Shown here one piece after another: positions 20,865-25,828 of a stretch of DNA of 36,514 nucleotides; the stretch's first letter is position 1; the number at the start of each line of letters is the position of its first letter. The translations under genes were made by a program, and so were the position numbers. Source of the DNA: Hydrogenophilaceae bacterium. Its GTDB lineage: Bacteria > Pseudomonadota > Gammaproteobacteria > Burkholderiales > Thiobacillaceae. Under the pieces are notes generated by a model, which saw only the letters and a program-made list of their open reading frames with translations, had not been told where the DNA came from and ran no database searches. The DNA lies in NCBI GenBank assembly GCA_013389025.1, contig JACAED010000046.1, positions 1 to 36,514 on the forward strand. The letters are read 5' to 3'.

Positions 20865-21230
20865 TTACCAGCGGCGATCTCCGCGGCCAGTACCGTGATG
20901 TCCGTCATGATGGTCATGGTGACGCCGATCATCTCGCCAGTCATGCCGGTAATGGGGCGCAAGGTAGTAATGATGAACAACACGCGGCGGGCGAACGCGG
21001 ATCCAGCCGCCTGGATGACGCGGGCCATAGGTCCAGTAGTGATTGCCGCCCCATTCGTACAGGATGCGGAAGGCGTCATCGCCACCCCAGTTGCTGTATG
21101 AAATACTCAAACGGGGTTCGACTCGAATCACGCGGGCGTCAACATAGCCATCGTAATAGCCGCCATGAGCAAATGCAGGCGCGGCTGAAGCAAGGGCCAG
21201 CAGGCCGGCAAAAAGAGTTTTTTTCAACAT
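20865..21230 (-). CDS. Small exported His/Arg/Asp-rich protein
   Basis: 121 aa from the ATG at 21230, two bases after the stop of the upstream glycine-zipper gene. An upstream in-frame ATG at 21245 is less likely because the chosen start begins the signal peptide MLKKTLFAGLLALASAAPAFA. The mature part has an aromatic/glycine region (WGGDDAFRILYEWGGNHYWTYG) and ends in a very His/Asp/Arg-rich tail (residues about 90-121). Such tails can bind divalent metals, but that is inference from composition. It is the third gene of a minus-strand run of exported proteins divergent from an OmpR/EnvZ system. No family function is known to me. Confidence 0.75.
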   Translation of the reverse strand: MLKKTLFAGLLALASAAPAFAHGGYYDGYVDARVIRVEPRLSISYSNWGGDDAFRILYEWGGNHYWTYGPRHPGGWIRVRPPRVVHHYYLAPHYRHDWRDDRRHHDHHDGHHGTGRGDRRW

Positions 21231-21232
21231 GA

Positions 21233-21808
21233 TCAATACCTCCATTCGTTGTTGCGATAATCATCGCGGGACTGGTTTTCGGCCACATTGACGTGGACAT
21301 TCACATCCAGCCACTTGCCGGGGTCATAGGGCAGGCGGGTGGCGAATTCCTTGCCGTGGTAACGGTAAACCACGTCGTAGCCAACGATTTCCTGGCGGTA
21401 GTTGTCCACCATCCGGCATTGTTCGACCGGGCGATGGCGGGTCGTGGTGTAGTAGCCGTCACGGTCATTCCAGCGGTCGCCGATCACGGCGCCGGTTGCG
21501 GCGCCCACGGCGGCGGCAGCGACCTTGCCGTTGCCCTTGCCGACGGTCGAGCCCACCAGGCCGCCGACGATTGCCCCCAGTACGGCGTTGCCCTTGTCAT
21601 TGCCATTGCGATAAACGCGCTCCTCATAACTCACATGCTCGGTCCAGCATTCGCGACGCGGCTCATTGACCTGTTCATAGACCGGCGTTGAAGTAATGAC
21701 CCTGGCACGATCCGGAAAACCATGGCCATGGCCTGCCCATGCCAAGCCGGAAGACAGCGCAAGCGCGGCGGTCAGTGCCGTGATCAGGGGGGTGTTGCTT
21801 GTTTTCAT
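21233..21808 (-). CDS. Glycine-zipper 2TM-domain exported protein
   Basis: 191 aa with a signal peptide (MKTSNTPLITALTAALALSSGLAWA). The glycine-zipper domain is at about residues 74-112 (NAVLGAIVGGLVGSTVGKGNGK, then GAATGAVIGDR). The C-terminal part (VEQCRMVDNYRQEIVGYDVVYRYHGKEF, with GKWLDVNVHV) is typical of the periplasmic or outer-membrane glycine-zipper proteins seen widely in beta- and gammaproteobacteria. A good ribosome binding site (AAAGGAGC) precedes the ATG at 21808. Such proteins are usually envelope-associated, but the specific role is unknown. It is co-directional with the two flanking small exported proteins. Confidence 0.85.
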   Translation of the reverse strand: MKTSNTPLITALTAALALSSGLAWAGHGHGFPDRARVITSTPVYEQVNEPRRECWTEHVSYEERVYRNGNDKGNAVLGAIVGGLVGSTVGKGNGKVAAAAVGAATGAVIGDRWNDRDGYYTTTRHRPVEQCRMVDNYRQEIVGYDVVYRYHGKEFATRLPYDPGKWLDVNVHVNVAENQSRDDYRNNEWRY

Positions 21809-21840
21809 GGTTACGCTCCTTTGTTCAAATGTCGTGAAAC

Positions 21841-22131
21841 TCAGTGACGTCCGCGGTCGTCATAAACTTTGTCAGGCCTGTCGAGGCTGCGACGTTCATA
21901 GCCGTAGCCATAACCGCGATCCTTGTCTTCGTCCTCGGCCCGATCCTGCTTCTTCTTGCCGGATTGCTGCCTGGACTTGCGCGGGTCGCGGTCTTCCTGC
22001 CTGTATTCATCGCCGCCCTTGCGCGCGACCATCCAGGCTTCCTCGGGAAAGCCCTGGCTGGCCTCAGCGGGGCTGGAAAATGCCGGGCCGGCAAGGCTGG
22101 CGGTCAATACGGCAATCAGTAATCTGCTCAT
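21841..22131 (-). CDS. Small exported highly charged protein
   Basis: 96 aa from the ATG at 22131, which has GGAAAG just upstream; the longer frame adds 28 residues with no signal-like character. The signal peptide is MSRLLIAVLTASLAGPAFS. The mature protein begins with an ordered-looking stretch (PAEASQGFPEEAWMVARKGGDEYRQ) and then becomes a Lys/Arg/Asp/Gln-rich, probably disordered segment with GYGYGYERR. It leads the minus-strand exported trio, and its promoter region is shared with the divergent response regulator gene. I recognise no functional family. Confidence 0.72.
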   Translation of the reverse strand: MSRLLIAVLTASLAGPAFSSPAEASQGFPEEAWMVARKGGDEYRQEDRDPRKSRQQSGKKKQDRAEDEDKDRGYGYGYERRSLDRPDKVYDDRGRH

Positions 22132-22191
22132 GTTCTTTCCTTTCACCGGGAGGACGTTTCTGTCTTCCACGGTTTGCAGTATGGGGGGGAG

Positions 22192-22240
22192 TCGTAACCA
22201 GGCGGTTTCCCGCAAGCGCGATTTTGTAACAAGTTGTAAC
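22192..22240. promoter_or_regulatory. Phased TTGTAAC repeats, likely OmpR-type binding sites
   Basis: TTGTAAC occurs at 22224-22230 and again at 22234-22240, exactly 10 bp apart, with a third related copy TCGTAAC at 22192-22198. Tandem half-sites one helical turn apart are the normal arrangement for winged-helix OmpR-family regulators. They lie between the divergent response regulator gene and the exported-protein genes, so autoregulation plus control of the trio is a reasonable inference. A -10-like TATATT is at 22272-22277. Confidence 0.5.
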
Positions 22241-22284
22241 GGCGATGTTTCTAGTTGCGGGCTGGCGCTGTTATATTCCCCGGC

Positions 22285-23004
22285 ATGAGCGAGAAACAGC
22301 CTACCATCTATGTCGTGGACGACGATTCAGGCATCCGCGACCTGTTGTCGGAATACCTGATGGCCCAGGGGATGATCGTCCGGACCGCCTCCGGCGGTTC
22401 TGAACTTGACGGTCTCATGGCGGAAGACAGGCCCGATCTGCTGGTGCTGGACCTGATGATGCCGGGCGAGGACGGTTTGTCGATTGCCCGGCGCATCAAG
22501 GCACAGGCGGGTTCGCCGCCCATCATCATGCTGTCGGCCAAGGGCGAGGATATCGACCGCATCGTTGGGCTGGAAGTCGGCGCGGACGACTATCTGGCCA
22601 AGCCCTTCAACCCGCGCGAGCTGCTTGCGCGCATCCGCGCCGTCATGCGCCGGGGCAGTGCCGCGGAACCACGGCAACCGGAACAATCCGCCCGCCTGAT
22701 GGAATTTGGGCCTTTCCAGGTCAATCTCGATGCACGGTCGTTCAGCCGCGATGGTGAAGAAATCACGCTGACCAGCGGCGAGTTCAGCCTGCTCGAAATC
22801 ATGGTCACGCATCCCAACCGCGCGCTATCGCGGGATTGGCTGATGGATCAGTTGCGTGGATTCGAACGCGATCCGTTCGATCGCAGCATCGATGTCCGCG
22901 TCAACCGCCTGCGCAAGAAAATCGAGGACGATCCCGCCAACCCCCGCTACATCAAGACCGTGTGGGGACAGGGCTATTTGTTTGCGCCGCAGGGTAAAAG
23001 TTAA
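22285..23004 (+). CDS. OmpR-family response regulator
   Basis: 239-aa two-component regulator. The receiver domain (about residues 7-120) has the acidic pair Asp12-Asp13, phospho-acceptor Asp56 (LVLDLMMPGEDG), Ser84 and Lys106 (AKPFNPREL). The C-terminal winged helix (about 135-235) shows TSGEFSLLEIMVTHPNRALSRDWLMD and RSIDVRVNRLRKKIE...KTVWGQGYLF, matching OmpR more closely than PhoB. The ATG at 22285 lacks a ribosome binding site and sits 7 nt after a TATATT element, so the transcript could be nearly leaderless. The sensor kinase follows 6 nt later. Confidence 0.92.
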   Translation: MSEKQPTIYVVDDDSGIRDLLSEYLMAQGMIVRTASGGSELDGLMAEDRPDLLVLDLMMPGEDGLSIARRIKAQAGSPPIIMLSAKGEDIDRIVGLEVGADDYLAKPFNPRELLARIRAVMRRGSAAEPRQPEQSARLMEFGPFQVNLDARSFSRDGEEITLTSGEFSLLEIMVTHPNRALSRDWLMDQLRGFERDPFDRSIDVRVNRLRKKIEDDPANPRYIKTVWGQGYLFAPQGKS

Positions 23005-23010
23005 TCGTAC

Positions 23011-24285
23011 ATGGTGCAGTCGCTTTTTGCCCGCACCGCGATCATCCTAGCCATCGTTTTCCTGCTGTTTCAGGCCATGGCCAGCTATGTTGTCTATCGC
23101 ACGCTCGTCAAGCCGGTCGCGCAACGTTCGGCGGATGATCTGGCAGGATTGATCGTTCTTTCCGCGCAGACCTGGGTCGAACTACCCCCGGAGGTGCGTC
23201 CGGCTTTCGAGCGGGAACTGGCCAGACGCCACGGTTTGCGCTTGCAGGCTGCCTCGGGCGTCACGCCTGTCGAGGCGGCCGGTTTTCCGTTCAGGAATGA
23301 AATCGAGCTGGCGCTTTCGTCCAGGCTGGGCGAGGAGATTCGACTTGATGGCCGCAAGGACAGTCATGCGGTTTGGGTTGAATTGCCGGTGGGCGGAACA
23401 TTGCTGCAAGCCGGTTTTTTTCCTGATCGATATGCGGTCAGGCCACCACTCGCCGCAGTCACCCTTGTTTCCGTTGGGGCGTTCATCGTCTTGTTGACAG
23501 CCTTGCTGCTGGTGCGGCGAATTACCGTACCGCTTGCCAAGGCTTCGCAGGCGGCAGGCGTGGTGGGCAAGGGGAACATTCCCGAAAGTCTGCCCGAAAC
23601 CGGCCCCCGGGAACTGGCCGATCTGGCCCGGCGATTCAACCAGATGGCCCGCGAGGTTCATGATCTGCTGGAAAACCGCACGACATTGCTGGGCGGCATT
23701 TCGCATGACCTGCGCACACCGCTGACCCGCATGCAGCTCAACATCGAGCTGTTGCGCGAAAAGTTTGATCCGGAGAGGCTTGCCCGGATGGAAACAGACC
23801 TGGCCGAGATGAATGGCCTCATTGGCGGGTACCTTGAACTGGCCCGCAATACCCAGGCGGAGCTTCCGCAGACTGTTGATCTCGACAGTCTTGTGGCATC
23901 GGTTGCTGCCAAACATGGCGCGATTTATCAATCCCGAAGCCGATGCGATTACCCGGTGGCGCGGGCATCGCTGGAAAGATTACTGGACAATCTGATGCAG
24001 AATGCTCATCAATACAGTGGCGGCAAAGCTATTGAAACAAGATTGCGTTGTGGAAAGACCCACGTGGAAATCTCGGTCCTGGATTCAGGTCCGGGTATTC
24101 CGGAGCCGGAACTGGACAAGGTTTTCAGGCCGTTTTACCGGCTGGAATCATCGCGTGCGAGTTCGACGGGCGGGACAGGGCTGGGCCTGGCCATCGTCAA
24201 GCAACTGGCGGAATTGAATGGGTGGGAAATTCGCCTGGTCAATCGCCCCGAGGGCGGGCTTGAAGCAAAAGTGGTACTGAGATGA
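23011..24285 (+). CDS. EnvZ-like sensor histidine kinase
   Basis: 424-aa inner-membrane kinase partner of the preceding regulator. Two membrane helices (about residues 8-27 and 147-168) flank a periplasmic sensor of about 120 residues that I cannot assign to a ligand class. A HAMP domain follows (about 170-222). The H-box is GGISHDLRTPLTRMQ with His232. The N-box is LLDNLMQNAHQYSGG, and the G-boxes are LDSGPGIPE and GGTGLGLAIVKQLAEL. This architecture is that of EnvZ. The 3' end directly abuts a convergent micro-ORF (24286-24432): the stop codons form TGATCA. Confidence 0.92.
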   Translation: MVQSLFARTAIILAIVFLLFQAMASYVVYRTLVKPVAQRSADDLAGLIVLSAQTWVELPPEVRPAFERELARRHGLRLQAASGVTPVEAAGFPFRNEIELALSSRLGEEIRLDGRKDSHAVWVELPVGGTLLQAGFFPDRYAVRPPLAAVTLVSVGAFIVLLTALLLVRRITVPLAKASQAAGVVGKGNIPESLPETGPRELADLARRFNQMAREVHDLLENRTTLLGGISHDLRTPLTRMQLNIELLREKFDPERLARMETDLAEMNGLIGGYLELARNTQAELPQTVDLDSLVASVAAKHGAIYQSRSRCDYPVARASLERLLDNLMQNAHQYSGGKAIETRLRCGKTHVEISVLDSGPGIPEPELDKVFRPFYRLESSRASSTGGTGLGLAIVKQLAELNGWEIRLVNRPEGGLEAKVVLR

Positions 24286-24432
24286 TCAGCGTATGCGGCT
24301 TAGTTGAATTTCAATGAACAACAAGGTCAAACACACCAGCGACATGCGTTTCGTGCTTCCGCTGAAATAACCAAGCGGCGTGGAGCACATGCCGATCCTG
24401 AGTGCAATGCCACGCGAAAGTGTAAGTCGCAT
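24286..24432 (-). CDS. Micro-ORF B, similar to micro-ORF A upstream
   Basis: A 48-aa frame starting at the ATG at 24432 (MRLTLSRGIALRIGM...) and ending at 24286, back-to-back with the histidine kinase stop. Its central and C-terminal part, YFSGSTKRMSLVCLTLLFI, aligns without gaps to WFQGETERMRLTSLCLMFI of micro-ORF A. Over the ungapped 26 residues beginning at Met14 of A and Met15 of B, eleven positions are identical (M, F, G, T, R, M, L, L, L, F, I). Most conserved residues use different codons in the two copies. The C-terminal half is hydrophobic enough for a short membrane or amphipathic helix. It lacks a clear ribosome binding site and is 22 nt after A. The family is unknown to me. Confidence 0.45.
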   Translation of the reverse strand: MRLTLSRGIALRIGMCSTPLGYFSGSTKRMSLVCLTLLFIEIQLSRIR

Positions 24433-24454
24433 GCGTTTGATTGGGCCGGCAAGA

Positions 24455-24610
24455 TCAGAACGCCGGGGAACGCTGGGCGAATACCGACAACTGTATGAAC
24501 ATCAGGCACAGGCTGGTTAGACGCATCCGCTCGGTTTCACCCTGAAACCAGGCGAAAACGGACTTGTTCATTTCCAGAACCAGCAGATTGCTTCCAAGAC
24601 GTACACGCAT
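24455..24610 (-). CDS. Micro-ORF A behind a sigma-54-type promoter
   Basis: A 51-aa frame starting at the ATG at 24610 (MRVRLGSNLLVLEMNKS...), with a strong Shine-Dalgarno (GAGGAG) 6 nt upstream. It has a basic N-terminus, an aromatic pair (AWFQGETERM) and a hydrophobic C-terminal half (LTSLCLMFIQLSVFA). A near-perfect -24/-12 element begins 42 nt upstream of the ATG. Micro-ORF B follows after 22 nt and looks like a diverged duplicate. Promoter, ribosome binding site and paralogy together make it a credible small-protein gene. I recognise no family and propose no function. Confidence 0.55.
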   Translation of the reverse strand: MRVRLGSNLLVLEMNKSVFAWFQGETERMRLTSLCLMFIQLSVFAQRSPAF

Positions 24611-24651
24611 GATTTTCTCCTCGAAAATGATTCATTCATGGATGATCATGG

Positions 24652-24667
24652 TGCAACGCCTGTGCCA
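24652..24667 (-). promoter_or_regulatory. rpoN site: Near-consensus sigma-54 (RpoN) promoter
   Basis: On the minus strand the sequence reads CTGGCAC-AGGCG-TTGCA. The invariant GG and GC are 12 nt apart as required for -24/-12 promoters, and the elements match TGGCAC-N5-TTGCA exactly. The predicted transcript start is near 24642, giving a leader of about 30 nt that contains the GAGGAG ribosome binding site of micro-ORF A. The region just upstream (about 24690-24725) is very AT-rich, as expected for a bendable or IHF-bound segment. No sigma-54 activator gene is in this window. Confidence 0.65.
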
Positions 24668-24907
24668 GGACGGCCATTTCGAAATGTTGATATAACACAA
24701 TGAATTTAAATGATTAAATATTCAATTCACGAGGCATTTGGTTGAGCGCCCTGGACGGCCTGGCGTAAATTCGACAGGCTTTGACGAAACCGGACTCATT
24801 TCTCCTTGGTAGCGAGTACTTTGCAATCAAGCAAGATCCCTGGCCGGGGGAAGCACCGTTTGCAGGTAAAATCTGTCCTTTACAGGTAGCCTGCTCATAC
24901 TCAATCG

Positions 24908-25828
24908 ATGCGAACATTTCAGGAACTGATACTGGCCCTGCAAACCTACTGGGCCAAACAGGGCTGCGCGCTGCTTCAGCCCTATGACATGGAAGTCGGC
25001 GCGGGGACCTCGCACACCGCCACCTTCCTCCGCGCCCTGGGACCAGAGCCCTGGAAAGCCGCGTATGTCCAGCCCAGCCGCCGGCCGAAGGACGGCCGTT
25101 ATGGCGAGAATCCCAACCGCTTGCAGCATTACTACCAGTTTCAGGTGGTGCTGAAACCCGCTCCCGCCAATATCCTCGATCTGTACCTCGGCTCACTGGA
25201 AGCGCTGGGTTTCAACCTCAAACAGAACGATATCCGCTTTGTGGAAGACGACTGGGAAAATCCCACCCTGGGTGCCTGGGGGCTGGGCTGGGAAGTGTGG
25301 CTCAACGGCATGGAAGTGACTCAGTTCACGTATTTCCAGCAGGTCGGCGGCATCGACTGCAAGCCCATTACTGGCGAAATCACCTACGGCCTGGAGCGTC
25401 TGGCCATGTACTTGCAGGGCGTGGAAAACGTGTTCGATCTCCAATGGACCGAAGGCCTGACCTACCGCGATGTGTATCACCAGAACGAAGTCGAGCAGTC
25501 GGCCTACAACTTCGAGCACAGCGATGTCGAGTTTCTGCTGACCGCTTTCGGCGCACATGAAAAACAGGCCCAGCACTTGATGGAGCAGCAGCTTGCCCTG
25601 CCGGCCTACGAGCAGGTGTTGAAGGCCGCGCACACCTTCAACCTGCTGGATGCGCGCGGCGCGATTTCCGTGACTGAACGCGCGGCGTATATCGGTCGTA
25701 TCCGCAACCTCGCCCGCAGCGTGGCGAAGAGTTATCTGGATTCGCGAGCACGCCTGGGTTTCCCGATGGCGCCCAAAGCATGGGCCGAGGAAGTGCAGGC
25801 CATGCTGGCCAAAAAGGAGGCAGCGTAA
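24908..25828 (+). CDS. glyQ: Glycyl-tRNA synthetase alpha subunit
   Basis: Catalytic alpha subunit of the bacterial alpha2-beta2 glycyl-tRNA synthetase, 306 aa. It starts [20 protein letters not shown]. Class II active-site segments are clear: [19 protein letters not shown] (about residues 33-51), [25 protein letters not shown] (about 59-83) and the motif 3-like [16 protein letters not shown]. Its stop overlaps the glyS start as TAATG, and the two subunits are needed together, so coupled translation makes sense. It begins a six-gene plus-strand run. Confidence 0.97.

Follow-up and report, generated by a model that had tools for sequence, protein, structure and literature searches.

Genome annotation readily overlooks proteins of about 50 residues, and the locus described here raises the question of whether two such short frames are genes and, if so, how they are controlled and what they make. 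The frames lie on the minus strand of the window (the whole stretch of DNA analyzed, 36,514 nucleotides), beside genes resembling a two-component system and glyQ. An earlier note, made from the letters alone, described one frame of 51 codons and a second of 48, separated by 22 nt, and proposed a new small-protein pair. Here, we confirm the finding and show that it reaches further than the earlier note could tell, and we propose an account of the control region and of the products.

Window layout and the two frames

Features are listed in Table 1, with neighbors named by eye or by similarity to genes of the window. The frame lengths, the gap of 22 nt and the GAGGAG ribosome binding site given in the earlier note are all borne out by the coordinates. 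Copy 2 ends directly against the stop of the convergent envZ-like gene (24285), and no separate ribosome site for it is evident by eye in the window; GGAG stands at the position of the copy 1 site in 16/16 loci printed.

Table 1. Coordinates of the micro-protein genes, their control elements and adjoining genes in the window
Feature	Position	Strand	Remarks
Copy 1 micro-protein gene	24455..24610	-	51 codons + stop; 53/117 f1 genomes; dN/dS 0.16; frame control
Copy 2 micro-protein gene, copy 1 paralogue	24286..24432	-	48 codons + stop; dN/dS 0.30; separate clades
Copy 1 ribosome binding site GAGGAG	24617..24622	-	
Putative sigma-54 (RpoN) promoter element TGGCACAGGCGTTGCA, -24/-12 type	24652..24667	-	51/52 f1 loci; forms of the element before distant relatives
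Probable enhancer site TGTCGAATTTACGCCA, 16-nt palindrome	24761..24776	-	51/52 f1 loci; G395 and G088
EnvZ-like sensor kinase gene, convergent neighbor	23011..24285	+	Context only; named by eye
OmpR-like regulator gene, beside EnvZ-like gene	22255-23004		Context only; named by eye
GlyQ-like gene, divergent neighbor	24908..25828	+	Context only; named by eye

The two peptides align ungapped around F-x-G-x-T-x-R-M-x-L-x-x-L-x-L-x-F-I; in the best 26-residue window anchored on F-x-G-x-T, 11 positions are identical, a figure that agrees with the earlier count. Along the full diagonal, the number of shared residues rises to 13, and 10 of these have different codons, as had been remarked of most conserved residues. 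The BLOSUM62 local score of the pair (62) was reached by 0/5000 shuffles.

Evidence for coding

For copy 1, the median NG86 dN/dS was 0.162 (1295 usable of 1326 pairs), with every pair below 1, and for copy 2 it was 0.302 (1174 usable of 1225 pairs), with 97.2% of pairs below 1; this set excludes G150 for both copies and G130 and G140 for copy 2. A frame control was run on 49 (copy 1) and 46 (copy 2) ungapped codons. The true frames gave dN/dS values of 0.14 and 0.26, respectively, with stops in 0/52 and 0/50 sequences. The +1 and +2 sense frames gave 1.03 and 2.19 for copy 1 (stops in 52/52 and 10/52) and 0.79 and 1.94 for copy 2 (stops in 50/50 and 17/50). One antisense frame was also low (0.25 for copy 1 and 0.40 for copy 2; stops in 42/52 and 10/50), which we attribute to shared third positions.

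The earlier note had asked for a Ka/Ks below 1 and had named stops, frameshifts or a lost residue pattern in homologous loci as grounds for rejection. The ratio is below 1 in the median of both copies, the frames are open in 52/52 copy 1 and 50/50 copy 2 sequences, and the residue pattern persists with one exception, copy 1 of G150, which keeps an open frame but no longer has the motif's G and E. On these comparisons, both frames are almost certainly protein-coding genes under selection as proteins. That their similarity is due to chance or composition in a noncoding gap has next to no probability: short frames are common and this gap holds several others, but conservation across 53 genomes refutes chance similarity, and selection, the tree described below and the shuffles also speak against it.

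Sigma-54-driven small RNAs exist, and an element this short and tightly controlled could be a sigma-54-dependent regulatory RNA, with the open frames as incidental or secondary features. We consider this very improbable, given that dN/dS well below 1 and zero stops coincide in the coding frame only, that the ribosome site is conserved, that Rfam had no match within the window and that the copy 2 stretch folds no better than shuffles (z of -0.82). As for how copy 2 is translated, its start falls on the last base of copy 1 (one-base overlap) in 42/50 loci measured, an arrangement that suggests translational coupling; in the window, the two genes are 22 nt apart.

Distribution and family structure

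The window genome (75% complete) has the pair at one place only, with both copies. In a search of this genome and 100 relatives (101 in all), 22 genomes matched at E 1 or better, of which 16 have copy 1 (E ≤2.7e-11) and six are weak. Rows from G052, G064, G074, G081 and G095 and second places in G057, G030 and G043 were treated as noise, and G088, weak in this search (0.121), is a real relative by a wider profile (A4). Across the 117 genomes of family f1, to which the window genome belongs, 56 matched at E ≤0.1, and 53 of them have copy 1 at E 4.4e-26 or better; the three at E 0.06 to 0.09 (G015, G020 and G029) and second places in G154 and G141 were set aside as noise. Copy 2 follows copy 1 in 53/53 of these genomes (50/52 loci by text pattern; G130, G140 and G150 by eye), probably with a GTG start in G130. 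The remaining 64 f1 genomes have no strong match, including 7/9 in the window's own genus (g1) and 8/56 in g6; many of the 64 are incomplete, yet G003 and G126 are 99% complete.

The designation as a pair holds within f1 but is too narrow for the family, which has single-copy relatives in three other families. The copy 1 profile found distant ones in genus g95 of family f50, in which a search gave a relative in 8/8 g95 genomes and in 0/2 genomes of the other genus (noise rows of the profile search that found f50: G242, G368, G439, G400, G465, G428, G078 and G461). Profile A4, run against 399 genomes of the order, added G395 in f35 (E 6.2e-10) and G088 in f29 (E 2.7e-8), with G215, G078, G363 and G392 as noise. 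No convincing relative appeared outside in a class-level sample of 369 genomes, where rows from G606 (internal stop), G640 and G746 were noise.

In a tree of 98 sequences, with the root placed by our choice on G395, outside f1, 44 copy 1 and 44 copy 2 sequences form separate clades (support of 0.65 and 0.77, respectively), and both f1 clades together split from the 10 single-copy relatives (support of 0.92). Supports are modest, as expected at 50 residues. Given a root outside f1, the topology suggests one tandem duplication before the f1 genera g1, g6 and g12 parted.

All 30 rows of A4 have the core F, G and T. In sequences that A4 does not include, the G is replaced by A in G395 and G088, by C in G346 and by R in G150. 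In the last of these (L110, reverse strand from about 876), copy 1 reads WFHRQTRRM instead of WF.G.TERM and the motif of copy 2 is intact; this copy 1 is a natural variant of the core.

Neighborhood

An OmpR- and/or EnvZ-like gene is convergent beside the pair in 12/12 f1 loci read (8 of g6, 3 of g12 and G008). On the other side stands glyQ or glyS in G008 and g12 and, in g6, an ABC-F-like gene that is readable in 5/8 loci. In g95, a glycerate-kinase-like gene adjoins the micro-protein gene in 7/8 loci, and the 5 to 12 kb read at g95 loci hold no gene similar to OmpR or EnvZ of the window. The two-component system reported beside the pair in the earlier note keeps its place in f1 but is missing from the surroundings of the gene in the f50 loci read, and its position is therefore no evidence of function; the OmpR/EnvZ neighbor was rejected as a candidate partner on the same comparison.

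These constant chromosomal neighbors also bear on whether the locus is a toxin with a paralogous partner, or another selfish module, as might be supposed of two coupled genes with small, partly hydrophobic products. Such modules are highly unlikely here, in view of the OmpR- and/or EnvZ-like gene in all 12 f1 loci, the existence of single-copy relatives and the lack of a match in plasmids and phages (searched with one copy 1 protein), in viral contigs (searched with the copy 1 alignment) or in PADLOC.

Upstream of the OmpR-like gene, small exported-looking genes occupy positions 20865-22215 of the minus strand. Relatives of one of them, the gene at 21233-21808, lie close to the pair in G008 and in three loci of g6 (L056, L062 and L065).

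Probable sigma-54 promoter element

A TGGCAYAGGCRTTGCA-like -24/-12 element is located -50 to -57 from the ATG in 51/52 f1 loci, so that the sigma-54 site whose conservation the earlier note had proposed to check is indeed kept. The element is one letter off in G033 (AGGCATAGGGCTTGCA) and reads CGGCATGACAGTTGCA in G150, which is outside the 52 loci. In g95, the pattern is present in 7/8 loci and is weaker in the eighth (TGGTATGGATGTTGCC). Sigma-54-like elements also precede the f35 and f29 relatives, AGGCATGCCGATTGCA at -41 in G395 (AGGCAT, one letter off) and TGGCATGGAATTTGCA at -58 in G088; these genomes were found by protein similarity alone and were outside profile building, which makes them the closest approach to a test. 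The sigma-54 and palindrome patterns were drawn up after viewing the sequences, and the counts are descriptive rather than a test. As background, TGGCAYNNNNNTTGCW has 6 matches each in the whole genomes of G000 and G048 (1.84 and 2.9 Mb), with controls at 0 and 2. The pair is very probably under sigma-54 control. Promoter and micro-protein are what the families share; the neighbors are not.

Other sigma-54-like elements were seen in the same two genomes (gene names by eye). In G048, TGGCATAGGGGTTGCA (L116:1128-1143) lies 49 nt before an opgG/mdoG-like gene, which has TGTCGC...GCGACA repeats upstream. An argJ-like gene is preceded by such an element in G048 (L114) and in G000 (L120), and in both genera the element is followed by a conserved-looking stretch starting ATGTACCT.GG.CC. 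At L117 of G048, the order is a sigma-54-like element, a 67-residue frame and a gene resembling sulfide-quinone reductase.

Upstream palindrome

The palindrome of the window starts 109 nt upstream of the -24 element. TGACGG-N4-CCGTCA, the form in most g6, or a relaxed form of it is present in 51/52 f1 loci, starting 109 to 113 nt before the -24 element, with a start at 100 to 104 nt in g12; the one locus without it, in G117, has 11 Ns in the region. The exact form occurs once per genome, at the pair, in 4/4 g6 genomes tried and is absent from G000 in a genome scan. TGTC-N8-GNCA is found at -111 in G395 (f35) and at -110 in G088 (f29), and g95 (f50) has a different palindrome at -90 to -100 (7/8 by pattern; G431 has none). 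Since the palindrome is conserved in f1, f35 and f29, a specific enhancer-binding protein is likely.

PrsR and the PEP-CTERM question

PrsR (TIGR02915) exceeds its curated cutoff in 85/117 f1 genomes. It occurs together with the pair in 51 genomes, while 2 have the pair only (G119, with a partial PrsR gene, and G131), 34 have PrsR only and 30 have neither (Fisher 5.5e-8, kinship ignored). The same four counts are 2, 0, 0 and 7 in the window's own genus and 46, 2, 5 and 3 in g6, in which the 99% complete G126 has PrsR and lacks the pair. In f50, PrsR is present in 10/10 genomes, with or without the micro-protein relative (8/8 in g95). From co-occurrence, PrsR appears to be a companion of the pair.

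According to two publications (PMC1569441; PMC9850573), PEP-CTERM genes are controlled by PrsK-PrsR and RpoN, and the former (Haft et al., PMC1569441) places a 17-nt motif ending in TTTACA ahead of the sigma-54 motif of these genes, at a mean distance of 62.8 nt (32 to 92). Our PrsR box model drew on three genomes and on loci for 30 of 47 PEP-CTERM matches. A [TC]GTCGGNTTTCTTTACA-like box is present in 15/30 of these loci, 52 to 98 nt before a sigma-54-like element apart from one nearer match at 18.

The pair could accordingly be imagined as a member of the PEP-CTERM/exosortase regulon, switched on directly by PrsR. Co-occurrence suggests as much (PrsR in 51/53 f1 genomes that have the pair; within g1, 2/2 genomes with the pair and 0/7 without it; 10/10 in f50), the promoter is of the same type, and the palindrome ends about 94 nt from the -24 element, within the 52 to 98 nt of the PrsR boxes. 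Box scores at the palindrome do not support it: true PrsR boxes score 22 to 30, against -0.7 or lower for the f1 palindromes, -12.8 for that of f29 and -17.6 for that of f35, none of which matches the box; two g95 sites score 13.0 and 4.3. Closer to the promoter, the best PrsR-like upstream stretch falls at -36 to -41 in 24/52 f1 loci, and the best score of the upstream region has a P value of <0.05 in 13/52 loci (10/52 with other shuffles; 2.6 expected). This signal is weak, for the stretches belong to a T-rich tract, are nearer the promoter than PEP-CTERM boxes and score 9.3 or less in every f1 locus other than G048. No PEP-CTERM sorting domain was found in the products (NCBIfam at E 1, 30 members), and the gene is absent from 34 PrsR-positive f1 genomes and 2 f50 genomes. 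We do not accept the T-rich stretches as boxes, and we regard direct activation by PrsR, with membership in its regulon, as unlikely.

In G048 (L054), TGTCGGCATTTTTTACG scores 22.6, like a true PrsR box, and lies 39 nt before the sigma-54 element of the pair. Of 52 f1 loci, this is the one in which a stretch before that element reaches the scores of true boxes.

The proteins

Pfam, NCBIfam and PADLOC gave zero matches for 30 members of the family. PHROGs (best E 0.1) and PDB (best E 0.14) gave nothing significant, and the papers listed, a part of those that matched the search terms, include none on the pair. With dN/dS below 1, frames open in relatives and no match in the databases searched, the proposal of a new small-protein pair is supported.

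All nine proteins examined have a net charge between +1 and +6 and, after the motif, a hydrophobic stretch of 17 residues with E or Q within it. The hydrophobic moment favors a strand over the last 9 of the 17 C-terminal residues in 8/9 proteins, and over the whole 17 neither form prevails; alternation in the N-terminal part favors a strand in 7/9 proteins. Two AlphaFold models, built with four sequences each, were mostly helix, at low confidence (pLDDT of 67 and 58). The proteins probably act as adaptors or regulators, either in the cytoplasm or close to the membrane.

Proposed mechanism and meaning

The best explanation of the whole, which we hold with somewhat better than even confidence, is a signal-switched sigma-54 operon of two paralogous micro-proteins that are cotranslated and form a heteromer. 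Both frames would belong to one sigma-54-dependent operon, turned on upon a signal by an enhancer-binding protein at the palindrome, and copy 2 would be made through translational coupling to copy 1. The two products would then assemble as a heteromer, a step toward which we lean slightly, and the single-gene relatives would form a homomer. The weakest step is the process served. Envelope or exopolysaccharide function is a doubtful guess from co-occurrence, made because PrsR, the enhancer-binding protein of PEP-CTERM genes, is found in nearly every carrier genome tested.

Taken as a whole, the locus may represent an undescribed sigma-54-switched micro-protein family of at least four bacterial families, in which the Thiobacillus-type branch was duplicated into an obligate two-protein complex with a dedicated enhancer-binding protein and site; for this full statement, we would put the chances a little below even. 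If true, it would be a self-contained regulatory output module, with one signal answered by one operon, and the sigma-54 network of Thiobacillus-like bacteria would gain an output of a new kind. Comparison yields the family, the type of regulator and the likely binding site together, and knowing which enhancer-binding protein acts at the palindrome would lead to the signal and, from there, to the process.

Comparison with known systems

As a kind, a conserved and probably sigma-54-controlled small-protein operon is already known; this family and its control region are undescribed as far as these searches go. PspB and PspG are small proteins of sigma-54 operons. The likeness lies in short proteins that are produced when needed under the control of an enhancer-binding protein, and the difference is that the 30 members of the pair family have no Pfam or NCBIfam match. 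PEP-CTERM genes resemble the pair in having a sigma-54 promoter with an upstream enhancer site, and almost all tested genomes with the pair encode PrsR; the pair differs in its enhancer sequence, in lacking a PEP-CTERM domain, in products of about 50 residues and in its two-gene operon. Its spacing falls near the upper limit of the PEP-CTERM values obtained here, not outside them. CydX (PMC4325964), an example of the conserved small-protein families that are hard to annotate, belongs to a known oxidase, whereas the proteins of the pair have no known partner; the two are alike in length and in having been recognized through conservation.
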